DNA from: Clostridia bacterium
GTDB taxonomy: Bacteria; Bacillota; Clostridia; Christensenellales; Aristaeellaceae
Reading direction: 5' to 3'
DNA: 51,918 nucleotides
Assembly: GCA_017545905.1 (NCBI GenBank)
Contig: JAFWXL010000112.1
Span: 1-51,918 of the forward strand
Below, one piece after another: positions 5,972 through 19,117 of the stretch. Under the pieces are notes generated by a model, which was given only the letters and a program-made list of their open reading frames with translations, had not been told where the DNA came from and did no database searches. The position numbers and the translations under genes are program-made. Within the stretch, counting starts at the first letter, position 1, and every line of letters starts with the position of its first letter.

Positions 5972-7504
5972 TCACCTCACTGAATTACTCAATTCTGAAA
6001 CACTGGGAGAGGGCGACGAGGGCGACGAAGCGAAAAAAGCACTTGGGTTTGTCGGCCCTGTGGGGGAAGAGACGCCGCGCGCCGGATCGGCGAGGAGCGC
6101 CTGAAAATAACTGTTGAAGGTGGATTCAAACTCAAAGTGATCTGAAAAAACGGCAACCTTTGAGATGAACCTGCGCAGCATGGCCGACGTCATTTGCGGA
6201 TCGTCATCCAGGGAGACGGCAGCTGCGTCTGCGAAATAGGCCTCGATCTGGGTGCGTGAGACGGAGGGCGGTGGTGCAGAGATATGCTCAAGGACTTTGA
6301 TCTGCTCTTCGAGCGACGAAATTTCTTTGGAGAGGCGCTCGAGGACAACGGGCGCCAGTACGCCGCTGGACATGTTGGTGATCAGCGTGTCGATCTTTGC
6401 GCGGAGCGTCCGGATCTGGCGGGCGTTCTCTGCGGCGCGCTGCTTTGAACTACTCATTTGGCCGGAAACGTAATCCTCGACAGCAGAGGAGAGCTGTGCG
6501 CGGAGCTCGGGGGAGAGCAGCTGCGCGAGGTAATCGCAGGCGGCTTGTTCGACTTCCTGGCATGGAACGGCTCGCAGCTTGCAAGAGGGGCAGTCGTAAT
6601 ACCTGTGCGTCTTATCCTGCTTAACAACGTTGTGCCCGGTCAGATTGCTGCCACATTCGCCGCATGTGATCAGGCCCTTGAGCAGGTATTTTTGCTTAGG
6701 GCGCCTGCCTACATTTCGCCGTGTGTCCATGATGTGCATCGCCTCCTGATATGTTTTTTCATCTATGATTGCTGGATGATTGTTTGGAATTTCAACGATT
6801 TCGTCGCCTGCACGAGCGCGATACAGACCCGTATAAAGGGGGTTGCGCAAGGTTTTTACAACGTTATTGGAAAGCATATTTCCTTTTCTGCGTCCGCGGA
6901 CGCCAGCAGCTCGCATTTCTGCGACAACAGGTGCGCAAGGTTCGCCATCAATGACGCACTGATAGAGTTTTCGAATATAGTAAGCTTCCAAGTCGTTGAT
7001 CTTGTAATGTCCATCGTCATCGACATCATATCCGAGAGGATGGACGCCGCCTGCGTGTTTCCCGGCGCGGATCTTGACGCGGCGGCCCTTGATGACCTCA
7101 GAGGAGAGATTCTTGGAATAATACTCGGCGAGGCCCTGCATGAGCGCCTCGAGGAGCACGGCCTCGTTTCCTTCGCCAAAGTCCTGTGCGACGGCAACCA
7201 GGCGCGCGCCGCGCTTCTTGATTTCCTGCTGGTAGACGGCGGCATCGTAACGATTGCGCGCGAAGCGATCCTGCTTGTGGACGAGAATGAGATCCACAGG
7301 ATCTGACTTGAGATCGGCGATCATGCGCAGGAAGTCCGGGCGATTGTCGCTGGTGCCGGAGATGGCGCGATCGTAATACATGCGCACGATCACGACGCCA
7401 TTGCGGGAGGCCCACTCGCGCAGGGCCAGCTCCTGGGCTTCGATCGAGGATTCGTGCTGGCGATCGGAGGAGTAGCGGCAATATCCGGCGGCGGTTCTGG
7501 GCAT
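5972..7504 (-). CDS. Large serine recombinase (phage integrase)
   Basis: A 510-residue site-specific recombinase. The N-terminal resolvase domain has the catalytic serine in GYCRYSSDRQ (S12), then YYDRAISGTSDNRPDFLRMI and LILVHKQDRFARNRYD. A Recombinase domain follows (GGVHPLGYDVDD, MLSNNVVKTLRNPLYTG), then a zinc ribbon (CGECG ... CPSC, residues ~300-325) and a coiled coil (residues ~375-420). ATG 7504 is preferred because AGGTGA lies five bases upstream; an open extension to 7609 runs through a phage repeat and is unlikely to be translated. The C-terminal tail (from ~residue 480) is Ser/Pro-rich and ends in NSVR. Its TGA lies within the ribosome-binding site of the next host gene, so the last codons may be specified by the attachment site. 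Confidence 0.95.
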   Translation of the reverse strand: MPRTAAGYCRYSSDRQHESSIEAQELALREWASRNGVVIVRMYYDRAISGTSDNRPDFLRMIADLKSDPVDLILVHKQDRFARNRYDAAVYQQEIKKRGARLVAVAQDFGEGNEAVLLEALMQGLAEYYSKNLSSEVIKGRRVKIRAGKHAGGVHPLGYDVDDDGHYKINDLEAYYIRKLYQCVIDGEPCAPVVAEMRAAGVRGRRKGNMLSNNVVKTLRNPLYTGLYRARAGDEIVEIPNNHPAIIDEKTYQEAMHIMDTRRNVGRRPKQKYLLKGLITCGECGSNLTGHNVVKQDKTHRYYDCPSCKLRAVPCQEVEQAACDYLAQLLSPELRAQLSSAVEDYVSGQMSSSKQRAAENARQIRTLRAKIDTLITNMSSGVLAPVVLERLSKEISSLEEQIKVLEHISAPPPSVSRTQIEAYFADAAAVSLDDDPQMTSAMLRRFISKVAVFSDHFEFESTFNSYFQALLADPARGVSSPTGPTNPSAFFASSPSSPSPSVSELSNSVR

Positions 7505-7526
7505 GTAATCACCTCGCTTTGGCGTC

Positions 7527-7550
7527 AAAACCGACAGCGCTGGCGGTTTT
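7527..7550. repeat. 24-bp phage palindrome, copy 1
   Basis: AAAACCGACAG + CGCTGGCGGTTTT, an inverted repeat with a single A:G mismatch at positions 8/17. It lies 22 bases upstream of the recombinase start, on the leftward transcript. Confidence 0.9.
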
Positions 7551-7890
7551 GCGGTTATGGGTTGGTTATGGCGGTTATGGAAAATTCTGAAATCCATAAC
7601 CGGATTCATAACCGGATTTCGGCGCGCATTTTCAGGCGCTATCTATATTATTATTTATTATTTTATTTTAAGTTATAAAGTTATGATATATAGTATCTGA
7701 GAAAACTGATTTCATCGATGTGTGAGGATATATATTTGGCGACGGTGTGAGCGTGCAGCGGGCACACACCTTTCCGGAAAACGGCGAAAATCCATAACCG
7801 ATGCCTTCCAGCCCTTGCGGCGTCTAGGTTTTTGCGGTTAGAAATGATCCATAACCGCACCGAACCGCAGAACGGGAATTCGTAACCGGA
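7551..7890. promoter_or_regulatory. Cluster of CCATAACCG / GGTTATGG motifs in AT-rich gap
   Basis: The 395-base gap between the recombinase and exonuclease genes has no gene. It carries repeated CCATAACC cores in both orientations: GGTTATGG at 7553-7560, 7564-7571 and 7573-7580, and CCATAACC at 7594-7601, 7792-7799 and 7849-7856. Near copies are TCATAACCGG at 7606-7615, GCGGTTA at 7834-7840 and CGTAACCGG at 7881-7889. Between the two groups lies a very AT-rich tract (about 7637-7700). The layout resembles iterons beside an unwinding element, or multiple binding sites for one protein. Confidence 0.7.
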
Positions 7891-7899
7891 CAGGGGAGA

Positions 7900-8847
7900 T
7901 CAGAGCATCTTGACGAATTCGTCCTCATTGAGGATCTGGATGTCCTGCCCTTTGGCTGCGAGCTTCTCGGCGCTGAGCAGCTTCTTGCTCTTGGCCTTGC
8001 CTTTGAGGACGCGCGGATCTTGGTAACCGCAGATCAGGAAATTGGTATCCGCATTGATGCGTTCACCGATCTGGCCGCCACGCTTGATGACCAGTTTTTC
8101 TGCTTCGGCGCGAACCATGCTCTGCAGCTTGCCGGTGAAAACGCAGGTCATGCCCAAGAAGGGGTTATCCTCGCAATCGGAGAGGTCGATGCTTTCAGCA
8201 AACGCGTCAAGGTCTTCGCGGTGGGAGCGGTAGCTGGCATTCTTTTTCCTGCGGCAGCTGACGTATTCGCCGCTCTTTACGGTGCCAAGGCGCACAAAGC
8301 ACTGCTTGAGCATGTCTTCCAGATCGGCAGCGCCACTGGTGCGCAGGAAGTGGAGCAGGATCCTCGCGCAGATTTCGGCGTCGGCATCGGCAGCGTGGTG
8401 CTCAAATTCACCGAGGCCGCAGGCGTCGGCAACGTCGGTGAGGGAATAGCTTGCTAGACCCGGGAGTAGGACGCGGGATAGCACGCGGGTGCAAACAAGA
8501 TTCATATTGGGCAGCTGGAGGCTAAACCACTCGCAGGCGCTGCGAAGGACACCCATATCAAAGGCGGAATTATGCGCCACGACGATGGTTTCATCGTCGA
8601 TCAGCGCAGCGATTTCCGGGAGAATGCCGGAAAAATCAGGCGCATCCTTGACCATGTCGGGTGTGATGCCGTGAATCATGACGTTGAACTCGTCAAAGTT
8701 TTCCGGAACAGGCTTGATGAAAAGGTGCTTCTTTTGCAGTACATTGCCAGAAAGACAGTCGATGACGCAAAGGCCGACCGAACAGGCGCTGGATCGGCAT
8801 TCGTTCGCAGTTTCAAAATCAATGCCGAGGATTTTCGTAACGGTCAT
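7900..8847 (-). CDS. DnaQ-like 3'-5' exonuclease with C-terminal BRCT domain
   Basis: A 315-residue DEDDh-family exonuclease. Exo I is GIDFET (D10, E12), Exo II is VVAHNSAFDMGVL, and Exo III is HHAADADAEICARIL with the catalytic H-x4-D, so all acidic residues and the histidine are present. The C-terminal ~75 residues (FLGMTCVFTGKLQSMVRAEA, then VIKRGGQIGERINADTNFLICG) form a BRCT domain, as in NAD-dependent ligases. The ATG at 8847 is supported by AAAGGAGAG; an open upstream extension overlaps the repressor gene and is discarded. It lies between repressor and integrase on the lysogenic strand, so it is probably expressed in the lysogen. A role in protection, repair or superinfection control is inferred, not shown. 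Confidence 0.9.
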   Translation of the reverse strand: MTVTKILGIDFETANECRSSACSVGLCVIDCLSGNVLQKKHLFIKPVPENFDEFNVMIHGITPDMVKDAPDFSGILPEIAALIDDETIVVAHNSAFDMGVLRSACEWFSLQLPNMNLVCTRVLSRVLLPGLASYSLTDVADACGLGEFEHHAADADAEICARILLHFLRTSGAADLEDMLKQCFVRLGTVKSGEYVSCRRKKNASYRSHREDLDAFAESIDLSDCEDNPFLGMTCVFTGKLQSMVRAEAEKLVIKRGGQIGERINADTNFLICGYQDPRVLKGKAKSKKLLSAEKLAAKGQDIQILNEDEFVKML

Positions 8848-8874
8848 AACGCTTCTCTCCTTTGTTTGTCTCAG

Positions 8875-8901
8875 GCGTCGCCAGATGGCGGCGCTTTTTT
8901 T
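8875..8901 (+). terminator. Rightward terminator-like hairpin antisense to the lysogeny operon
   Basis: GCGTCGCCA and TGGCGGCGC form a 9-bp stem with one T:G wobble, followed by TTTTTTTG on the + strand. Both flanking genes run leftward, and the other strand has no T-tract, so the hairpin is oriented to stop antisense transcription toward the repressor. Confidence 0.5.
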
Positions 8902-8920
8902 GTTTTTGGAAATTGCAAGA

Positions 8921-9289
8921 TTACGCCTCTTGTGTGGAAGTTGCAAGGGCTTTTTCGTTTTGTTTGCGCATCGTGGCGATATTAGTTTCGATCAGCTCGC
9001 GTTGGTCGGGAGTCAGGCCAAAGAAGGGGTCGCGCTGCACCGAACTGGTTGGGATAGAAACAGGAATCGGTTGAGAGACGGTCATGCTGTCGGTGAGCCC
9101 GAGCAGGTAGTCAGCAGAGACCTTGAGTCTGCGGCAGAGCAGAATAAGAATGTCATATGACGGTTCGGAATGACCGTTGACATAATTGCTCAGGCGTGCT
9201 GGTGACAGTTTGATGGAAGAAGCAAGTTCTTTTTGCTGCATGCCGCTGCGCTCGATGACGCTACGCAGACGGCGCGCGAATTCGTCCAT
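8921..9289 (-). CDS. CI-like phage repressor, XRE/HTH_3 family
   Basis: A 122-residue regulator with an N-terminal helix-turn-helix (residues ~2-58). Helices are visible in FARRLRSVIERSGMQQKELA and LSPARLSNYVNGHSEPSYDI, and the domain ends in the typical LKVSADYLLGLTD. The short C-terminal part (LTPDQRELIETNIATMRK) lacks a LexA-type S24 peptidase, so induction would not use RecA-stimulated self-cleavage. The start is fixed by GGAGG six bases before ATG 9289; the open upstream extension lies in the operator region. It is transcribed leftward, divergent from the Cro-like gene, and heads the exonuclease and recombinase genes. Confidence 0.9.
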   Translation of the reverse strand: MDEFARRLRSVIERSGMQQKELASSIKLSPARLSNYVNGHSEPSYDILILLCRRLKVSADYLLGLTDSMTVSQPIPVSIPTSSVQRDPFFGLTPDQRELIETNIATMRKQNEKALATSTQEA

Positions 9290-9325
9290 AGGGTGCCTCC
9301 AATAGATAAAGATTTTATGTATATC

Positions 9326-9354
9326 ATCATAAATCAAAATTTTGTGTAACGCAA
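9326..9354 (-). promoter_or_regulatory. Leftward repressor promoter
   Basis: On the - strand, TTGCGT (9354-9349), a 17-base spacer and TATGAT (9331-9326) give a good sigma-A promoter 37 bases before the repressor start. The spacer contains the palindrome CAAAATTTTG (9335-9344), a candidate operator. Confidence 0.6.
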
Positions 9355-9359
9355 TAGAA

Positions 9360-9374
9360 TACAAAATTCTTGTA
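9360..9374. promoter_or_regulatory. Candidate operator palindrome TACAA-N5-TTGTA
   Basis: TACAAAATTCTTGTA is a 15-bp inverted repeat between the two divergent phage promoters, where a CI/Cro operator is expected. CAAAATTTTG at 9335-9344 shares the ACAAAATT-like half. Confidence 0.5.
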
Positions 9375-9381
9375 AAACTGC

Positions 9382-9410
9382 TTGACAATCAAAGAAAATG
9401 ATATTAAGAT
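9382..9410 (+). promoter_or_regulatory. Rightward early promoter
   Basis: A perfect TTGACA (9382-9387), a 17-base spacer and TAAGAT (9405-9410) lie about 40 bases before the GAGGTGG ribosome-binding site of the Cro-like gene. It probably drives the whole early region. Confidence 0.7.
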
Positions 9411-9451
9411 GATTGTGTGAATCAATAAATCTTGTATTGCGAGGTGGGTGA

Positions 9452-9715
9452 ATGGAAACGATTGGAAAACGGATTTGTCGTTTAAGAAAAGAGAATCGAC
9501 TGAGTTTGAGTATGCTTGCGGAAAAGGTAGGTATGAGTTCTCAGGCGCTATGGAATCTGGAAAATGATGTGGTGGGAAAGACGTTTGAGAAGCTGCCGCT
9601 GCTGGCAAAAGCGCTTGAATGTCGGATTGATGATCTGTTCCCGGAGATGGACGACGTCAAAACCGACAGCGCTGGCGGTTTTGAGAATGAGAGCTTGGAT
9701 GATTTTGAAATGTGA
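9452..9715 (+). CDS. Cro-like regulator, XRE family
   Basis: An 87-residue helix-turn-helix protein (IGKRICRLRKENRLSLSMLA, then VGMSSQALWNLENDVV and LPLLAKALECRIDDLFPE). It is the first rightward early gene, in the position of Cro. The HTH core ends near residue 67. The last 19 residues begin KTDSAGGF and are encoded by copy 2 of the 24-bp phage palindrome and its downstream block, an apparent C-terminal add-on. Confidence 0.88.
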   Translation: METIGKRICRLRKENRLSLSMLAEKVGMSSQALWNLENDVVGKTFEKLPLLAKALECRIDDLFPEMDDVKTDSAGGFENESLDDFEM

Positions 9716-9718
9716 GGA
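9659..9718. repeat. 24-bp palindrome copy 2 plus ~36-bp conserved downstream block
   Basis: The palindrome occupies 9659-9682, identical to copy 1. The following bases (GAGAATGAGAGCTTGGATGA, then TTTTGAAATGTGAG) recur with few changes after copy 3 at 10332-10366. The two 60-base stretches are therefore a duplication. Here the first part encodes the end of the Cro-like protein. Confidence 0.9.
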
Positions 9719-9726
9719 GAGCGTTT

Positions 9727-10308
9727 ATGGGAATAAGCAGAAAGAAAAAGCGATTGCCCGGCGCGGAATACAAAGCGCTGTGGAAGGTGTTGGGCGGCGC
9801 AAAATCCTGTGAAAACGAAACGTCGTTCAGCTGTGCATGTGTGATCTGCGGGAAAAGGTATGCAGTCTTTGTGTGCGAGCGCGAAGGCGGCCATGTAGAC
9901 TGCTTCTGCCGGAAATGCGGCGCAACCAAGGAACAGATTTTAGCGGAGATTGGGCTGGATACATCAAAATACGAAGTTGAAGCGATTGAAGAAAGGGAGC
10001 TGAAGAAGAGTATGGCAGCAATGGACGTGCTGGGCGCGAACCGATGCACAGCCTGCGAACATTATGTGCGCGAGGAAGTGGGCTACAACAGGAAGATATA
10101 CGGATGCAAGGTGCGCAACCTCTATCGGATGGATGAACTATGGGAAGCGCCTGAGAGCGACGAGCCCTGCAAGATGTATCAAGCGGATCGCAATAAGTTG
10201 CTTAAAGGCGCTGCGAATCTGGATGCGACTATCGAGGCATATGCCCGGGTGCTTGAGGAATTTAAGCAGCGCAGGGCGCTGCTTGCTCAGCTTCTGAATG
10301 AAACTTGA
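9727..10308 (+). CDS. Early phage protein with two cysteine-rich zinc motifs
   Basis: A 193-residue protein of unrecognised family. The N-terminal half has CACVICGKRY (C36, C38, C41) and HVDCFCRKCGATKEQILAEIGL (C59, C61, C64). The second motif resembles the CF-x-C-GA segment of primase-type CHC2 fingers, seen also in the 10382 and 12500 proteins. A second cluster, CTACEHYV ... YGCKV, lies near residues 110-133. The C-terminus is helical and charged. ATG 9727 is chosen because GAGGAGAG lies upstream; an ATG 15 bases earlier overlaps the preceding stop. It may bind DNA or act with the primase; this is inference from motif similarity and position. Confidence 0.75.
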   Translation: MGISRKKKRLPGAEYKALWKVLGGAKSCENETSFSCACVICGKRYAVFVCEREGGHVDCFCRKCGATKEQILAEIGLDTSKYEVEAIEERELKKSMAAMDVLGANRCTACEHYVREEVGYNRKIYGCKVRNLYRMDELWEAPESDEPCKMYQADRNKLLKGAANLDATIEAYARVLEEFKQRRALLAQLLNET

Positions 10309-10367
10309 AAACCGACAGCGCTGGCGGTTTTGAGAACGAGAGTCTGGACGATTTTGAAATGTGAGAG
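10308..10367. repeat. 24-bp palindrome copy 3 plus downstream block
   Basis: The palindrome occupies 10308-10331 and starts at the last base of the preceding stop codon, so it is not translated here. The downstream GAGAACGAGAGTCTGGACGA, TTTTGAAATGTGAG matches the block after copy 2. Confidence 0.9.
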
Positions 10368-10381
10368 GGGCGAAAGAAACG

Positions 10382-10942
10382 ATGAGCAAGATGAAGTGGC
10401 TGGTCACGCTGCTGGGCATGGATGTGTCCAGGGGCTTTAATGACGATAATTTCTGGACGGACTGCCCGTGCCACAAGGATGAAGAGACCTGCCTGCATGT
10501 GTATAAATGCGTCGACGGACGGATCGAGATGCACTGTTTCGCGTGCGGTGCGAGGAGCAAGGACGTAAGCGAGAAAGTCGGGATCCCGCTTGAGGAGCTG
10601 GAGACTGAAAAGGATTCGCTCAAGGCGATGAGCAGGACGGAGCACTATGGCAATCGTCGCTGGCGTGCAGTCAGGGCAGCGGCGAAGCGGAGGAGCACGC
10701 CGGAGACCTGGAATGATGCGCTTGAGACTGCGAGCTCGGCTGTGGTCTCTGTGCTCGATGCGATTGCCGGCGACAGGCAGGTGGCCAGCGATCAGCTGAT
10801 CGACGCGCTGGTTGGCGCGTTCGCCGACAGGCTCGGCAGCGTGGTCAGCATCCGGATCATGCGTGATCTTGAGGCATCGACGCCGCCGATGGACAAAACC
10901 GACAGCGACGTCGGTTTTGAAGGGAACGAGAAAAATGGCTGA
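10382..10942 (+). CDS. Phage protein with primase-type CHC2-like zinc finger
   Basis: A 186-residue protein. The N-terminal ~60 residues contain C28-P-C30-H31 and C52-F-A-C55-G, the same ligand spacing as the N-terminus of the large primase at 12500 (C27-P-C29-H30, C52-H-A-C55-G). The rest is helical, has no polymerase or Toprim motifs, and ends in KTDSDVGFEGNEKNG from palindrome copy 4. The start is set by GAGAGGGGCG before ATG 10382. It looks like a free-standing zinc-binding module derived from a primase, perhaps modulating template recognition. Confidence 0.75.
   Translation: MSKMKWLVTLLGMDVSRGFNDDNFWTDCPCHKDEETCLHVYKCVDGRIEMHCFACGARSKDVSEKVGIPLEELETEKDSLKAMSRTEHYGNRRWRAVRAAAKRRSTPETWNDALETASSAVVSVLDAIAGDRQVASDQLIDALVGAFADRLGSVVSIRIMRDLEASTPPMDKTDSDVGFEGNEKNG
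10895..10918. repeat. 24-bp palindrome, copy 4 (variant)
   Basis: AAAACCGACAGCG + ACGTCGGTTTT. Position 17 is T instead of G, which restores pairing with A8; a mismatch moves to 10/15. It is translated in-frame as KTDSDVGF. Confidence 0.9.
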
Positions 10943-11147
10943 CTGCAGGCTGTGCAGGTGGTACCAACCGCGATACAGAGAGGTTGTCGCGCCGATCTGG
11001 GCGCGGGCGTGGTGTGGGTGTCGCGGGGCGTGGATGTCGGTTGTCGGTCTGGCAGCTGCGACGGAATACGGATGCGCGAGCTTTCAGGCACGCAAAACCG
11101 ACAGTGCTGTCGGTTTTGAGGAGGGAAACCATGAAGACGGCACCTGA
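10935..11147 (+). CDS. Small cysteine-containing phage protein
   Basis: A 70-residue protein of unknown family (DCRLCRWYQPRY, WCGCRGAW, YGCASFQARK). The cysteines could bind one zinc ion. It starts 8 bases inside the preceding gene. Its last ~17 residues (KTDSAVGFEEGNHEDGT) come from palindrome copy 5 and run past the start of the next gene (overlap 17 bases). It could be compared with short phage proteins carrying a CxxCxxY motif, but I do not recognise it. Confidence 0.6.
   Translation: MADCRLCRWYQPRYREVVAPIWARAWCGCRGAWMSVVGLAAATEYGCASFQARKTDSAVGFEEGNHEDGT
11094..11117. repeat. 24-bp palindrome, copy 5 (perfectly paired variant)
   Basis: AAAACCGACAGTG + CTGTCGGTTTT. Here A8 pairs with T17 and all outer positions pair; only the central dinucleotide is unpaired. 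It lies 13 bases before the HNH gene and overlaps the approach to its GAGGAGGG ribosome-binding site. It is read as KTDSAVGF by the upstream gene. Confidence 0.9.
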
Positions 11148-11694
11148 ATTCTGGCGGGATATTCCCGGAACGGATGGCAAGTATCAGGCGAGCCGCGCGG
11201 GAGATATCCGCCATGTGTGGCCCGGCGGGATGACGTCATTACTTCGGCCGTATCTGCTGCACAGCGAATGCCATAAACGGAAGCGCTACCGGCTGCACGT
11301 ACACCTGCGCATTGGAGGCAAGGACAAAGTGCGCGGCGTGCTGGGGCTGGTGGCCGCTGCCTGGAAGGGCAGGCCGCCGGAGGGTATGATCTGGCACCAT
11401 GCAAACGGCAACGTGTTTGACAATTCGGTGGGTAACATCCAGCCGATCACGCAGCAGGAGCTGGGCCGGAAGAGCGGCGGGAAGTCCACGCGCAGGAGCG
11501 TGGAGATGATCGACCGGGAGGGCAACGTGGTATCCCTGTATGTGAGCGCGAGAGCAGCTGCGCGGGAGAACCATATGAGTTATCAGGCGGTGATCGACCG
11601 CTGCCATGGAAGAATCAAGAAACCGTTTGAGTTGATGGGGCACACGTTCCGATATGAGGACGGGGCACGAGGACGGAGGAAAAAGGAATGCTGA
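11131..11694 (+). CDS. HNH homing-type endonuclease with NUMOD4 domain
   Basis: A 187-residue protein with an N-terminal NUMOD4 motif (EFWRDIPGTDGKYQASRAGD), an HNH_3-type nuclease motif (IWHHANGNVFDNSVGNIQPI, residues ~90-110) and a C-terminal NUMOD1-like DNA-binding segment (VEMIDREGNVVSLYVSARAA, then NHMSYQAVIDRC). This is the standard arrangement of free-standing phage homing endonucleases. ATG 11131 follows GAGGAGGGAAACC. The open region upstream of this ATG runs through palindrome copy 5 and another gene and is not part of it. The target is probably a site in a related phage lacking this gene. Confidence 0.9.
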   Translation: MKTAPEFWRDIPGTDGKYQASRAGDIRHVWPGGMTSLLRPYLLHSECHKRKRYRLHVHLRIGGKDKVRGVLGLVAAAWKGRPPEGMIWHHANGNVFDNSVGNIQPITQQELGRKSGGKSTRRSVEMIDREGNVVSLYVSARAAARENHMSYQAVIDRCHGRIKKPFELMGHTFRYEDGARGRRKKEC

Positions 11695-11954
11695 GAATCG
11701 AGAACCGGGAAAACACATTCAAATATGAGATGTCGGGCGGAGACAAGGAGCTCGTCAGCGAGCTGGTCGAGATAGGCGGTCTGGTGCTGGCTGCGGTTAT
11801 GCGCGGCAATGAGAAGGCGCTTGTCTCAAAGGCTTCGCTGGAGCTGGCGCTTGTGCGCGCAGCTGATGCGGTGGCTTCGGACATGGTCAAGATGGCCATG
11901 TATGCGCTGGAAAATGGCGTGCTGCCAGAGGAAAAGAACCATGGAGAAGAATGA
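11688..11954 (+). CDS. Small helical phage protein, unknown
   Basis: An 88-residue acidic, mostly helical protein (GDKELVSELVEIGGLVLAAV, LVSKASLELALVRAADAVAS). I recognise no family. It starts 7 bases inside the HNH gene and overlaps the next gene by 14 bases, an operon-like packing. AAAAGGA lies upstream. Confidence 0.6.
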   Translation: MLRIENRENTFKYEMSGGDKELVSELVEIGGLVLAAVMRGNEKALVSKASLELALVRAADAVASDMVKMAMYALENGVLPEEKNHGEE

Positions 11955-12324
11955 CCGGCCCGGCCGCATGGTGAGCGGCTTCGCCTACAAAAACGACGAA
12001 TGGCGGGAGCACGGCATCCGGGCTAAGCGGTTTCTGCCTTGCCCGCACTGCGGCAGCGCCGTCAGCGGGCGGGAACGCAGCTGGTGGCCGGCTGGCGCGA
12101 CGGAGGCCGCTATGGTGTTCCGCACGGCGACCTGCGTGAACAGGAGCTGCGGATGGAGCTACCGCAACACCGGCGGCGGGCGCGAGGAATTCATTGACGA
12201 GGTAAACAGGCGATGCAAAACCGACAGCGCTGGCGGTTTTAATGAGGAGGAGACGACATGCAGGTCATGCTCAAAGCAAGCTACAAGCGGCAGGCCCGAT
12301 ACACCGGCCAGGCGCCGGAGATGA
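11941..12324 (+). CDS. Zinc-ribbon phage protein with repeat-encoded tail
   Basis: A 127-residue protein. Residues ~30-75 form a likely zinc ribbon: PCPHCGSAV followed ~35 residues later by CVNRSCGWSY. An Ogr/Com-like or Lar-type fold is possible. The core ends near residue 90. The frame then runs through palindrome copy 6 as CKTDSAGGFNEEE and on into a Cys/Arg-rich tail overlapping the next gene by 67 bases, far more than its neighbours overlap. The tail therefore looks like an extension created by the repeat. Confidence 0.65.
   Translation: MEKNDRPGRMVSGFAYKNDEWREHGIRAKRFLPCPHCGSAVSGRERSWWPAGATEAAMVFRTATCVNRSCGWSYRNTGGGREEFIDEVNRRCKTDSAGGFNEEETTCRSCSKQATSGRPDTPARRRR
12217..12240. repeat. 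24-bp palindrome, copy 6
   Basis: Identical to copies 1-3. It lies 17 bases before the ATG of the 12258 gene and is read in frame as KTDSAGGF by the 11941 gene. Confidence 0.9.
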
Positions 12325-12503
12325 TCAGCGCGGAGTACGGCGAAATTGAAGACCGGCTTGTGCTCGGCGAGCTGGCGTCTGCGGTGCAGAGCGTGGCATT
12401 TACACGGGGCGATATGCACATGGCCGGGATCATCAATGATGCGATCAACAGGGCGGCAGCAGACGGCAAGCTGGCGCTGCTGCCCGAGAGGTGGGCGCGA
12501 TGA
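12258..12503 (+). CDS. Small phage protein, unknown
   Basis: An 81-residue helical protein (MISAEYGEIEDRLVLGELAS, GDMHMAGIINDAINRAAADG). No family recognised. The start is clear from GAGGAGGAGACGAC. Its stop overlaps the primase start (ATGA), suggesting translational coupling to the replication protein. Confidence 0.6.
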   Translation: MQVMLKASYKRQARYTGQAPEMISAEYGEIEDRLVLGELASAVQSVAFTRGDMHMAGIINDAINRAAADGKLALLPERWAR

Positions 12504-15388
12504 CGATATACGATTGGGCGGGGCTGCTGACGGTGGATGACCGGCAGAGCAAGAGCCGCGAGGACTTTGTTGCGACCTGCCCGTGCCACAGTGACAGGCA
12601 TGCAAGCCTGCATGTGTATGTCGGCGGGGAAACAGGACAGGTGGTGCTCAAGTGCCATGCGTGCGGGGCGACCGGCAAGCAGGTATGCGAGGCGCTGGGT
12701 GTGGATCCGAAAGAGCTGTACTGCGACGCATACAGCGGCGAGCGCAGCAAGGTGATCGACATGAAGCGCAAGAGCGCACCGATGAAAGAGAAAAAGCGTG
12801 TGCCTTGTCAAGGCCTGTACAAGGAAAAGGACGTCTGGAAGGACGGCTTTGAGATCAAGGCCGTTTATGAGTACCAGGATCGCGAGGGCAGGATTGTGCT
12901 GCGCAAGGCGCGGCGCGAGAAATTCGACGAGGAAAAGCAGAAGAAGAAAAAGAGCTTCGCGATGCAGAGCCTTGAGGTGGACGGAAAGTGGTATCCGGAT
13001 GCGGGTATTTACATCAACCTGCTGTACCACCTGCCGGAGGTGCTGGAGAATATCGAGCGCAAGGGCACGATCATCATTGCCGAGGGCGAGAAGGACGTGG
13101 ACAACCTGCGCAAGCTCGGCTTCACGGCGACGTGCGGCTTGTGCGGCGGCGGTACCGGCAATCTCGAGGGCAAATGGAATGACGATCATGTGAAGCAGCT
13201 CGAGGGCGCGGAGCAGGTGATCGTGATCCCGGACTATGACGCTGCCGGCGAGGAGCTGGCGCAGCGGATCTGTAAGAGCCTGCAGGGGCATGTAGGAGAG
13301 GTCAGGCTGCTGCGTATCAGCGATCACTGCATGACGCTGCCGGAGAAGGGCGATTTCACCGACTGGGTGGACATCCTCAAGGCAAGCGGCCCGATCACCA
13401 AGAGCGACCTGCTGGCCAAGATGAACAGCATGATCGACGAGGCGCCGGTGTGGACGAAGGACAACGTGCGCAGGTTTGAAAAGAAGGGCGAGAGCAGCGG
13501 CGGCAGCGGCTCGGGCGGTGACGGCGGCGGCGATGACGAGAGCTATTTCGGACTGACCGGATACTGCATCAAAAACGGCTGCCTGGCGCGCGTGATCAAG
13601 GATGGCGCGATGCAGCTGTGCAGCTTCCTGCCGATCCCCAAGGAAACGATTGTGTATGACGATGGCGGCGACGTGCTGGTGGAGTATGTGATCGGCGGCA
13701 AGGCGGCGAGCGGTATGCCGCTCCCTGACGCCGTGGTCAAGGGAGAGGCGGAGCTGACGGCCATGCGCTGGCCGATGAAGTATTGGCAGCACTGGGGCAA
13801 CATCAAGCCCGGCCGGAACATGAAAGAGATGGTGCTTGACGCGATCAACTGCGCGGGCCAGCAGGAGAGCAGGCACAGGATGGTCTACGGCCATACGGGC
13901 ATGCGCAAGGTTGGAGACAAATGGTGCTACCTTCATGCGGGCGGCGCGATCGGCGCTGAGAACGTGAGCGTGCGCCTGGACGGCCCGCTTGCGTATTACG
14001 ACCTGAGCGAGATGATGTGTGACCCGGAGGAAGCTGCAGCGGCAGAGATGATCCTGATCGACATGATTCCTGCGCGCGTGATCTATCCGCTGCTGGCGCA
14101 GGCGTACCTGGCGCCGCTGTACAGCGTGCTTGAGGAGATGCAGGAGCCGCCGAGCTATGTGGTGTTTCTGATTGGTGCGCCGGGTGCAGGCAAATCGACA
14201 GTCGCAGGCTATGTGCAGGCGCATTTCGGCGACTTCTATGTGCGCCGGTTCCCCTCGAACTTCGCAGACACGGCGAACGTGGCGCGTGAAAAGGCCTTCT
14301 GGGCGAAGGATGCGCTGTACACGGTTGACGACTATGTGCCCAACCGCGACGGCGGGCGCATGAATGGCGCGGACATGGTGGCCAATGCGGTCATCAGCGC
14401 CGTGGCTGACCGCGCAGAGCGCGGCGGCCTGAGCGCGGACAAGACGCTGCGCGCAACCAGACCGGCGCGATGCACCTGCATCATGACGGGCGAGGATCTG
14501 CCCAAGCTGACGACGAGCCGACAGATGCGACTTTACCGGATCGACATCCAGGCCGGTGAGATCGCCAAGGACATGAGCGAGCTGAGCGTGCTGCGCGATT
14601 ATGCGCGCATGGGATATTTCCGGGCCTGCATGCGCGGCTACATCGAGAGCCTGCTTTCGCGCTGGGACGGGATCAAGAATGAGCTGCGCGACCGCCTGGA
14701 TCGGGCGTCGGACGAGGCGAGAAAACGCCTGACGCGCAGCGAGGGCCGTTTTGTTGAGGCGAGCATGCACCTGATGATGGGCGTGGAGCTGATGCTGGAT
14801 CATCTGCAGGCGTGCGGCATGCTGGACGAAGTTGGCCGTGCACAGCGCTATGAGGCGGCCTGCGCGGCGATCGCGGCGAACATGGACGAGCAGGGACGCG
14901 GCATTGACGCGACCAAGCCGGACACGATGTGGCTGGCGACGCTGGCTTCGCTGGTCAATACCGGCAGCGTATCCTTCCGAGATCGCAGCGAGCTGAGCGT
15001 CGGAGAGGTTTTCCGCACCGGCATGATCGGCTACAAGGATGAGAAATACTATTATGTCGTCGCGCCGGCAGCGGATGAGGCCATCCGTGAGCGCCTGCGC
15101 AAGGGCGGCGTCGAGCTGGGCGTGAGCAGTCAGAGTATCTACCGGCTGCTGGCTGCCGGCGGACATGTATTCCCGACGTATGACAAGAAGACGGGCAACA
15201 TCAAAGACCCGCAGAAGAACCTGAAAATAGGCGGGCGCACGGTGCGCCTGCTTTGGATCCACAGATGGGTGATCGACGGCGGAAAGCCGCCGGAGGCTGA
15301 CAAGGGCAAGGCGGGCTTTGTGCCGGCGGACGGCGAGCAGCTGCCCATGGAATTCACAGACGGACAAGAGAGGAGCGATCGGCAATGA
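12500..15388 (+). CDS. Phage replicative primase/ATPase (CHC2 finger, Toprim, P-loop ATPase)
   Basis: A 962-residue multidomain replication protein. A CHC2-type zinc finger occupies residues 27-58 (CPCHSDRHASLHVY, CHACGATG). A Toprim domain follows at ~185-265 (GTIIIAEGEKDVDNLRKLGF, then VIVIPDYDAAGEELAQRI, with E and DxD-like acidic residues). Residues ~333-348 are a Ser/Gly linker. The C-terminal half is a DUF927-like ATPase with Walker A GAPGAGKST near residue 559 and a Walker B-like ALYTVDDYVP near 607. It probably primes and unwinds phage DNA. The ATG overlapping the previous stop is preferred over a GTG 9 bases upstream. Confidence 0.9.
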   Translation: MTIYDWAGLLTVDDRQSKSREDFVATCPCHSDRHASLHVYVGGETGQVVLKCHACGATGKQVCEALGVDPKELYCDAYSGERSKVIDMKRKSAPMKEKKRVPCQGLYKEKDVWKDGFEIKAVYEYQDREGRIVLRKARREKFDEEKQKKKKSFAMQSLEVDGKWYPDAGIYINLLYHLPEVLENIERKGTIIIAEGEKDVDNLRKLGFTATCGLCGGGTGNLEGKWNDDHVKQLEGAEQVIVIPDYDAAGEELAQRICKSLQGHVGEVRLLRISDHCMTLPEKGDFTDWVDILKASGPITKSDLLAKMNSMIDEAPVWTKDNVRRFEKKGESSGGSGSGGDGGGDDESYFGLTGYCIKNGCLARVIKDGAMQLCSFLPIPKETIVYDDGGDVLVEYVIGGKAASGMPLPDAVVKGEAELTAMRWPMKYWQHWGNIKPGRNMKEMVLDAINCAGQQESRHRMVYGHTGMRKVGDKWCYLHAGGAIGAENVSVRLDGPLAYYDLSEMMCDPEEAAAAEMILIDMIPARVIYPLLAQAYLAPLYSVLEEMQEPPSYVVFLIGAPGAGKSTVAGYVQAHFGDFYVRRFPSNFADTANVAREKAFWAKDALYTVDDYVPNRDGGRMNGADMVANAVISAVADRAERGGLSADKTLRATRPARCTCIMTGEDLPKLTTSRQMRLYRIDIQAGEIAKDMSELSVLRDYARMGYFRACMRGYIESLLSRWDGIKNELRDRLDRASDEARKRLTRSEGRFVEASMHLMMGVELMLDHLQACGMLDEVGRAQRYEAACAAIAANMDEQGRGIDATKPDTMWLATLASLVNTGSVSFRDRSELSVGEVFRTGMIGYKDEKYYYVVAPAADEAIRERLRKGGVELGVSSQSIYRLLAAGGHVFPTYDKKTGNIKDPQKNLKIGGRTVRLLWIHRWVIDGGKPPEADKGKAGFVPADGEQLPMEFTDGQERSDRQ

Positions 15389-18068: not shown

Positions 18069-18560
18069 ATGACAGGCGATAAAGTTGTGCGCGCTGCGAT
18101 GGCGTATGAAAAAGATGTGCAGGCGATCGAGCTGCAGCTGGCGCTGGCGGACGACGTCGCACTGCGTATTACGCAGCAGATCAGCGGGCAGGGGGCGCGC
18201 GGCAGCGGGCACAGCGACAAGCCGCTGGCTGTGATCAGCCGGCGGGACGAACTGACACAGGCCAGGCGTGCAAGAGAATTCTGCTATAAGCTGGAACTGG
18301 CTGAGGCTGCGAGGCTGATCGGGGAGATCCCGTGGATCTCCTGCGCGGACGTGATGCGCCGCACCTGTTTCTCGGGCGACAGTCTGCGGCAGGTGGCCGC
18401 GAGCATGAAGCAGAGCGAAGACGGCGTGAGGAGCCTGCGCAGGCGCGGATGGCGGGCGCTTGCAACGATGAGCAGCGAGCTGGGGAAGAACGCGGAATAT
18501 CTGGAGAAGCGGGGGATTTATGAAGAGGGCATGAGGATCCGGCGCCGTGACCGCCTGTGA
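18069..18560 (+). CDS. Late-gene transcription regulator, sigma-region-4-like (RinA/ArpU type)
   Basis: A 163-residue protein just upstream of the packaging genes, where Firmicutes phages carry RinA/ArpU/Xpf-like late activators. The C-terminal segment RRTCFSGDSLRQVAASMKQS, EDGVRSLRRRGWRAL is a typical sigma-70 region 4 helix-turn-helix. The N-terminal half is helical (YEKDVQAIELQLALADDVAL). Its last codons enter the 10-bp array. It probably activates the promoter at 18676-18702. Confidence 0.75.
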   Translation: MTGDKVVRAAMAYEKDVQAIELQLALADDVALRITQQISGQGARGSGHSDKPLAVISRRDELTQARRAREFCYKLELAEAARLIGEIPWISCADVMRRTCFSGDSLRQVAASMKQSEDGVRSLRRRGWRALATMSSELGKNAEYLEKRGIYEEGMRIRRRDRL

Positions 18561-18679
18561 CCCCTTATGGCCACCCATGGCCACCTATGGCCACCTAGGC
18601 CACCTATGGCCGCCTATGGCCACCTATGGCCGCTTATGGCCACCTATGACCCTTGATGGCACACGATGACCCCTGTTGA
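18541..18679. repeat. Phased 10-bp tandem array, candidate packaging (cos/pac) or origin region
   Basis: Fourteen units of about 10 bases with consensus CC-R-CCTATGG. Examples are CCACCTATGG at 18581, 18600 and 18620, CCGCCTATGG at 18610 and CCGCTTATGG at 18630; one unit (18591-18599) is 9 bases. Outer units are degenerate (CCGCCTGTGA, CCCCTGTTGA). The period equals about one helical turn, so identical faces repeat along the helix. The array overlaps the end of the late regulator and precedes the HNH and terminase genes, the usual place of a cos or pac site. Confidence 0.85.
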
Positions 18680-18772: not shown

Positions 18773-19117
18773 ATGGGAAAAGAAACGGATCCGTTTTACG
18801 GCACGGACGCATGGAAGCGCGCCAGAGGGCGAGCGCTTGAGCGTGATCATTATTTCTGCGTGAAATGCCGGAAAGCCGGGCGCAAGATTACGCTGGAAAA
18901 CGGGCTGCGGGTGCCGGTACCGGCAGAGATGGTGCACCATATCAAGCCTATCCATGAGCGGCCGGATCTGCGATTGACGCTTTCCAACCTGATCAGCCTG
19001 TGCAACAGCTGCCATGCGGAGGAACACCCGGAGAAGCGGGCGGCAGCCGGCGCGGCGGTGCGCAAAAAGGAGCGTGCGCCTGAGTTTGCGGGTGTGCGAA
19101 TCATCAAGATGAGATAA
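18773..19117 (+). CDS. HNH endonuclease of the packaging module
   Basis: A 114-residue HNH nuclease of the type that precedes terminase in cos-packaging phages and assists large-terminase cleavage. Motifs are DAWKRARGRALERDHYFCVKC, EMVHHIKPIHERPDLRLTLS and NLISLCNSCHAEEH, with two CxxC pairs for the structural zinc and the HH-N-H catalytic residues. ATG 18773 has only a weak GGGTGG upstream, so the exact start is less sure; the more upstream ORF start lies in the promoter/hairpin leader. Confidence 0.93.
   Translation: MGKETDPFYGTDAWKRARGRALERDHYFCVKCRKAGRKITLENGLRVPVPAEMVHHIKPIHERPDLRLTLSNLISLCNSCHAEEHPEKRAAAGAAVRKKERAPEFAGVRIIKMR

Follow-up and report, generated by a model that had tools for sequence, protein, structure and literature searches.

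Contig JAFWXL010000112.1 of a Clostridia bacterium (51,918 nt; hereafter "the window", meaning this whole stretch) carries, in a phage early region, six copies of a 24-bp palindrome, each of which lies 13-50 nt before the start of a gene. The copies begin at 7527, 9659, 10308, 10895, 11094 and 12217; none is expected by chance, as the window gives 12 strand matches versus 0 in 100 dinucleotide shuffles. Our preferred reading, held tentatively and with a little less than even confidence, is that this palindrome is a start-associated, phage-specific, cis-acting dyad, putatively bound by a protein and copied within phages. Taken together, its phage-specific spelling, its conserved letters and its association with starts point to a dimeric DNA-binding protein somewhat more than to the rival explanations. 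The first-pass annotation, made from the letters of the window, had described the six copies, placed them at gene boundaries and noticed no others; all of this was borne out, a seventh copy being absent from the window. The fact that every copy precedes a gene start had been overlooked, as had the 57-nt stretch, with its identical 18-aa tail, that recurs at 9659 and 10308 (below). The copies, to which no strand is assigned, are listed below (L153 and similar handles are loci used for comparison).

7527..7550: copy 1, AAAACCGACAGCGCTGGCGGTTTT; 22 nt before the leftward integrase start; the same place is occupied in L444, L295, L449 and, split, in L153
9659..9682: copy 2, in frame near the 3' end of the Cro-like gene, among its last codons; L153 has an orthologous copy, spelled differently
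10308..10331: copy 3, its first base being the third of the stop codon that ends gene 9727-10308
10895..10918: copy 4, variant GCGACGTC; gene 10382 ends with it, in frame; L153 has the orthologous copy at 10582
11094..11117: copy 5, variant GTGCTGTC; the HNH gene starts 13 nt further on
12217..12240: copy 6, 17 nt before gene 12258; apparent gain in the window lineage, absent from the L153, L155 and L294 orthologues

For a subset of genes, a copy is found just 5' of the ribosome-binding site, or else within the final codons of the preceding gene. A dimeric phage-encoded protein would bind the dyad as DNA and thereby adjust the expression of the following gene; its binding preference would drift with the phage, and new sites would arise through copying of the 24-bp unit. 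The peptide K-x-x-x-A-x-G-F would then be an incidental frame-0 product, made where a copy happens to fall before a stop codon.

Position of the copies relative to gene starts

Read by eye in the window, the gaps between the copies and the next start are, in order, 22, 44, 50, 16, 13 and 17 nt. The corresponding starts are those of the leftward integrase gene and of the open reading frames (ORFs) at 9727, 10382, 10935, 11131 and 12258, all taken from the ORF list or the gene caller, save that at 10935, which was chosen by eye. Over a larger collection, the distance from the end of the site to a start is 10-30 nt for 25 of 48 intergenic sites, versus 15.6% under a null of uniform insertion (P 5e-9 if the sites are independent, which those of related phages are not), and the proportion is 12/27 when one value is kept per downstream gene family (P 4e-4). 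Position played no part in choosing the loci of this test, which were collected by spelling or homology. Chance palindromes of a KilA-like gene were taken out ahead of the counting: out of 148 sites, 58 (set D) were left unused and the filter kept 60 of the other 90; these 60, from 40 loci, gave 50 intergenic sites, two of which lay less than 10 nt from a start and were dropped. For copy 1, the gap entered in the test was that to a spurious small ORF (17 nt) and not that to the integrase gene (22 nt), both falling in the same bin.

The main rival, a serious one that we nevertheless regard as somewhat unlikely, is a self-spreading miniature palindrome, behaving like a Rickettsia palindromic element (RPE) or a repetitive extragenic palindromic (REP) sequence: the 24-bp unit would insert in phage DNA and survive where it does little harm, i.e., at gene junctions and in flexible protein linkers, in the frame that yields a mild peptide. 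The enrichment of sites just before starts, which exceeds that given by uniform intergenic insertion, speaks against it, and also weakens the view, taken at first, that all copies represent one mobile insertion.

The integrase gene, where placement before a start is clearest, provides a second argument of this kind. A copy is found directly upstream of it in five of six integrase loci, with differing spellings, although the related integrases share only 40-50% identity with that of the window, and such a shared location is not readily explained by self-spreading. In the window, L444, L295 and L449, this copy is immediately 5' of the integrase ribosome-binding site, while in L153 it is split by 51 nt into two arms (7997-8007 and 8059-8071) that add up to exactly 24 nt; the splitting stretch (8008-8058) has a hairpin of its own. 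No copy was present in the 96 bases upstream of the match in the sixth locus (genome G244, contig 212). Similarly, the HNH gene at 11131 and its L429 relative, 34% identical, are preceded by copies at 13 and 14 nt, respectively, whose spellings again differ.

Spelling, symmetry and folding of the palindrome

Four of the six window copies are spelled AAAACCGACAGCGCTGGCGGTTTT and share one internal mismatch, A8/G17. The flanks of the six copies are unrelated, with the exception of the 9659/10308 pair. According to the first-pass annotation, copy 5 restores the only outer mismatch (A8/T17); this is correct for the copy at 11094, which is not alone in doing so, since T17 is also present at 10895. 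Both differ from the other four in their core, and that at 10895 has further mismatches closer to the center. No window copy pairs fully, each forming 10 or 11 of the 12 pairs. The finding that the first-pass annotation had named as refuting it, the motif at random positions of the host chromosome, did not turn up: the spelling class of the window was found nowhere else in its own 2.53-Mb assembly (78% complete; the search did not extend to AAAAGCG-type spellings).

Each phage tends to have a spelling of its own. Among 300 genomes of the same family, two of the same genus, G265 and G244, have palindromes of this form, in several copies, close to related phage genes: AAAACCGTCTGCGCGGACGGTTTT twice in locus L153 of G265, and AAAACCGTCCGCGCGGACGGTTTT three times together with AAACCCG..CGGGTTT twice in loci L154 and L155 of G244. 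A loose pattern matched in 27 of the 300, including several matches in G199 (four) and G161 (two) whose arms differ among themselves. Viral contigs were also collected by homology to the primase, 10 of 80 loci having a match across most of the query at 30-51% identity; the 24-bp length recurs there with AAAAGCG..CGCTTTT spellings, and L299, L301 and L302 are without any copy. Copies are identical within six of nine multi-copy phages of this first, primase-related set. An exact search of viral contigs for the window spelling gave no match, nor did a DNA-similarity search of phage records; 34-nt queries gave only weak hits (E 0.1 or worse).

The length of the element is well defined. In 14 loci (273 kb; ten found by primase homology, the window, and three from the palindrome search), inverted repeats of the AAA..TTT type number 19 at a length of 24 and 0-4 at lengths of 25 and above, and 13 of the 14 counted at length 22 merely repeat these sites with a one-base shift. 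In 941 kb from 70 distant phage loci, two of length 24 were counted. The half-site in primase-related phages is AAA-N-S-CG-N-C-N-R-C. When symmetry is left free, a letter-only motif, which was derived from these same phages, occurs at 28 sites (17 distinct) in 349 kb, versus 0.25 in mononucleotide shuffles. The 80 loci collected with HNH proteins as queries gave 25 sites (21 distinct); this set is not independent, as four of its five query proteins came from palindrome-pattern contigs and the fifth from the primase set. The first-pass proposal that the inverted repeat itself is under selection could then be addressed at the variable positions: relative to letter frequencies, the arms match at position 8 in 15/17 and at position 10 in 14/17 distinct sequences of the first set (P 1e-5 and 0.003), and in 13/21 and 16/21, respectively, of the HNH set, which repeats earlier contigs. 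This part of the proposal therefore stands for the primase-related phages, and it is weaker in fresh contigs (below): symmetry is clear in the closer relatives of the window and only suggestive further out.

A symmetric unit could also act as RNA. We find it quite unlikely that the palindrome is an intercistronic hairpin, serving as a weak terminator or attenuator, or as a stabilizer of mRNA ends between operon genes. In the window, L153 and L155, the copies that fold well with their flanks are those free of the A8/G17 mismatch (-14.5 kcal/mol at 10895, -17.7 at 11094, -15.4 in L153 and -20.1 for L155 4540; z -2.6 to -4.3), and several copies in other, related phages (e.g., L460 and L375; by eye) have a core that extends by extra pairs into longer, terminator-like stems with T runs. 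The commonest window copy, in contrast, has a mismatched stem, with z scores of -2.3, -0.4 and +1.1, plus -0.4 for the minus strand; in L449 and L444, the copies beside the integrase gene fold unremarkably (z -0.9 and -0.2). Furthermore, the T run of the window copies is four bases long, and none of the six is among the seven terminator-like hits of the window (5.7 in shuffles), for which reason the terminator reading was dropped for them. Sense-strand mismatches comprise 3 G-U, 7 A-C and 15 others (n=25), or 2, 5 and 10 among distinct sequences (n=17); with no excess of G-U, there is no sign of selection at the RNA level. The letters conserved at positions 6, 7, 9 and 12 are not required for a stem, and Rfam covariance models gave no match up to E 1 in 6800-13200. 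Separately from the palindrome, a terminator-like hairpin with a long T run is located at 8873-8896, between the exonuclease and repressor genes, and a similar one is seen by eye in L153 (~8962-8990).

The first-pass annotation had offered as one possibility a stoperator set for the phage repressor. Multi-copy dyads in an early region, near gene boundaries, do recall operators or stoperators of the CI-type repressor (8921) or the Cro-like protein (9452). However, the repressor-cro gap contains no palindrome copy in the window, L153, L444 or L155, and in the first three it has repeats of its own, AT-rich in the window, of GACAAATTGTC type in L153 and of AACAAATAGTTAA type, six times, in L444; these are the presumed, unproven operators of the repressors. 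As the gaps hold other repeats and no copy, binding by CI or Cro is unlikely, and this reading, to which we give hardly any weight, was dropped.

Several observations weigh against a protein-bound, start-associated dyad. Five of the six window copies have a mismatch within the ten outer pairs. In 62 loci freed of query contigs and earlier contigs, of which nine have a site (11 sites in all), the arms match in only 6/10 and 6/10 cases (P 0.14 and 0.06). In the pattern-fetched set, the match is 7/11 at position 8, which the search pattern does not constrain. The L298 relative of the window HNH gene has its copy one gene further upstream. For a terminase-side HNH gene, a copy is present at most 130 nt upstream in 7 of 52 distinct loci (26 duplicates and two truncated loci removed), and five of these seven supplied query proteins, which leaves 2/47; many of the other terminase-side loci have, by eye, ordinary hairpins of other lengths at that place. 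Some copies lie deep in genes and far from starts (L294 primase, L155 9453), and the terminator-like copies of phages such as L460 and L375 belong here too. Gene calls came from a home-made caller, which was checked on the window and misses the cro start, ORF 10935 and ORF 11941. Finally, no binding protein was identified, the phage repressor and Cro being unlikely binders. The recount of the HNH and symmetry tests slightly lowered our confidence in the protein-bound dyad and, by an even smaller step, raised that in a self-spreading palindrome, in a hairpin and in the mobile coding palindrome considered below.

Apparent gain of a copy, the encoded peptide and a proposed joint at gene X

The genes and segments surrounding the copies are the following.

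5972..7504, minus strand: large serine integrase (PF00239, PF07508), preceded by copy 1
8921..9289, minus strand: CI-type repressor (PF01381, E 4.5e-13)
9290..9451, no strand: repressor-cro gap, with AT-rich repeats of GAATACAAAATTCTTGTA type and no palindrome copy
9452..9715, plus strand: Cro-like regulator (PF01381 HTH_3, E 2.9e-08)
9683..9715, plus strand: ENESLDDFEM, the C-terminal tail encoded by the Cro-like gene past the palindrome, read from the sequence
9727..10308, plus strand: gene X, between two palindrome-tail copies; no Pfam or PHROGs match
10332..10364, plus strand: orphan copy of the ENESLDDFEM tail, detached from any cro gene; four differences, all synonymous
10382..10942, plus strand: small zinc-ribbon protein resembling primase N termini, ending in copy 4; weak PF01807 match below cut-off, tblastn matches in primase N termini
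10935..11147, plus strand: small Cys-rich ORF ending in copy 5; no PHROGs family
11131..11694, plus strand: HNH homing-type endonuclease preceded by copy 5 (phrog_1492, E 5e-18; NUMOD4 and HNH_3 weak, below the Pfam cut-off)
11941..12324, plus strand: ORF with copy 6 read in frame, from the ORF translation
12258..12503, plus strand: gene starting after copy 6, from the ORF list and gene caller

Comparison of orthologous genes shows both conserved and variable sites. The L153 copies are located in the orthologues of the Cro-like gene and of gene 10382, at the same place and in the same frame, and encode KTVCADGF where the window has KTDSAGGF; by eye, the Cro-like orthologue has a decayed copy in L155 and none in L444. 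The 12217 copy is missing from all three orthologues of ORF 11941 (L153, L155 and L294) and bears the A8/G17 mismatch of the window itself. Hence, one site is shared with relatives and the 12217 site would most simply be a gain in the window lineage, a sign that copying of the 24-bp unit probably took place within this lineage of phages.

The absence of the 12217 copy from these orthologues is also what a self-spreading palindrome would predict, all the more so as the four identical copies share one defect within largely unrelated flanks and as the primase linker of L294 holds an in-frame copy. In contrast, its restriction to the phage, with the window spelling class missing from the rest of the host assembly, is not expected for such an element, and neither is the lack of a Y1 transposase (RAYT, for REP-associated tyrosine transposase): PF01797 had no match in the same 78%-complete assembly, while the control matched in five of 14 genomes.

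The first-pass annotation had reported that four translated copies share a single frame, read as KTDS(A/D)(G/V)GF, and this was confirmed for the ORFs at 9452, 10382, 10935 and 11941; four of the six window copies are thus read in frame 0 at the end of the preceding ORF. That this shared C-terminal peptide is the point of the element was not supported. Among 49 sites (from 15 loci that are primase-related or of the same genus, plus 53 of the 80 collected with HNH proteins), 38 are outside called genes, two of them (window 12217 and L155 4540) being in ORFs missed by the caller, so that what is conserved is not this peptide. It does exist, and it looks like a by-product, most related copies being intergenic. 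Nine of the 11 sites inside called genes are in frame 0, including two orthologous pairs, a bias that also accords with self-spreading; the two others are in an integrase extension, probably a mis-start, and in an imperfect copy (L444 16744). The peptide of frame 0 is mild, those of the other frames are basic or hydrophobic, and tolerance alone may therefore explain the preference. Two other groups of palindromes within genes have the look of codon runs that arose by chance and were caught by the search patterns: those read in frame 2 as "SPQLQAKAPALALLGKTKLFELM" in a gene that we take to be KilA-like, and those of a DUF3102-like gene ("NPTALSDLG").

A related and unlikely possibility is that 24-bp self-propagating palindromes exist in phages and other mobile DNA of Clostridia. 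They would land in frame inside proteins or in intergenic DNA, stay nearly palindromic because one arm corrects the other, and be homogenized within each phage. Such mobile coding palindromes would be several times shorter than RPEs, and look-alikes are seen in a circle from an Oscillibacter metagenome-assembled genome (MAG) and in a spirochaete prophage remnant. Locus L289 (G662 contig 58) has matching ends and is probably a circle of ~9.34 kb with, by eye, ParA-like and initiator-like genes; it holds several 24-bp AAA..TTT palindromes that differ from one another, including a tandem pair. L290, a phage remnant (Mu-like by eye) of a spirochaete MAG, has about nine such palindromes with differing arms within 1 kb (7173-8240). 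These AAAT-type palindromes of Oscillospiraceae and of the spirochaete are same-length look-alikes of the phage family rather than demonstrated kin.

Repeats of this kind can also serve as joints between genes. A stretch of 57 nt that runs from copy 2 through the cro 3' end recurs after gene X, at 10308-10364, with four differences that are all synonymous; both stretches encode the same 18-aa tail, and the second tail belongs to no present gene. In L153, the cro-palindrome-tail unit leads directly into the 10382 orthologue, gene X being missing and the copy single, and tblastn found no match to gene X in 18 related loci. The simplest account would be a crossover at the palindrome that joined gene X to the tail of another phage's cro gene. 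Whether this could be the function of the palindrome, as a recombination linker whose short junction homology lets phages swap single genes, seems very doubtful to us: gene X is one clear case, recombination at repeats is an expected side effect of any repeat, and symmetry and placement before starts would be left unexplained.

Other repeats were noted in this and related phages. Short iteron-like repeats occupy the gap adjoining the integrase gene in the window (7550-7890) and L153 (8080-8450), upstream of int in L295 and L449, and in L444 (6570-6900); by eye, their motif differs by phage (CCATAACCG; TGTGACA; GCGGTTGAAA, common to L295 and L449; and AAAATTACA), and they are perhaps an origin or the site of a second regulator. 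An array of GGCCACCTAT-like decamers is present at 18545-18660 of the window, ahead of the HNH gene at 18773.

Comparison with known repeat systems

Stoperators of the L5 type are asymmetric, oriented with transcription, and match the operator of the repressor. The palindromes resemble them as multi-copy sites near gene boundaries and differ in being symmetric and absent from the repressor-cro gap of four phages.

The first-pass annotation had also noted a likeness to palindromes that insert in genes. RPEs are described as ~150-bp palindromes that are spread through the host chromosome and found in frame inside protein genes (PMC10969869). The in-frame reading, in the L294 primase and in the Cro-like tails, and the absence of the 12217 copy from three of three orthologues do support the likeness. 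The present unit differs by its length of 24 bp and by the confinement of its window spelling class to the prophage in the 78%-complete assembly, and the lack of PF01797 matches there sets it apart from REP sequences, which go with a Y1 transposase. The palindrome thus works partly like a coding palindrome and fails on the size and host spread of RPEs.

Closer counterparts are found in mycobacteriophages. Those of cluster O have a multi-copy 17-bp dyad repeat, with many sites intergenic and some coding, whose arms are invariant across 34 Corndog sites and which is not closely linked to starts (PMC4351075). The palindrome shares with it the multi-copy dyad and the mixture of intergenic and coding sites; unlike that repeat, its spelling varies among related phages, with 17 distinct 24-mers in the related set, and its copies are at starts.

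In cluster K phages, extended start-associated sequences (ESAS) are multi-copy inverted repeats located just upstream of the translation starts of a subset of genes; they consist of a pair of imperfect 17-bp repeats, separated by a spacer that is mostly 4-13 bp long, are tied to a 13-bp start-associated sequence (SAS), and have a consensus that varies by subcluster (PMC3203893, PMC12699233). The palindrome is similarly multi-copy, group-specific in spelling and directly upstream of starts (25/48 sites, 12/27 families, 13-50 nt in the window). It differs from the ESAS in being one compact 24-bp palindrome, in its hosts, and in having no shared downstream 13-mer, the flanks of the window copies being unrelated outside the 9659/10308 pair. 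The titles and abstracts covered by our literature search, which mostly leaves out subscription journals, brought up these mycobacteriophage repeats and no case in a Clostridia phage.

The nearest known counterparts of the palindrome are the cluster K and cluster O repeats, of which it is a variant in other hosts and a member of neither. Start-associated dyads, known from mycobacteriophages, now have a similar arrangement in other phages, including prophages of uncultured Clostridia. There, a repeated dyad can add a peptide to the C terminus of a regulator and act as a joint for gene exchange, and its phage-specific spelling, together with natural presence/absence pairs at orthologous genes, makes the function of such dyads testable.

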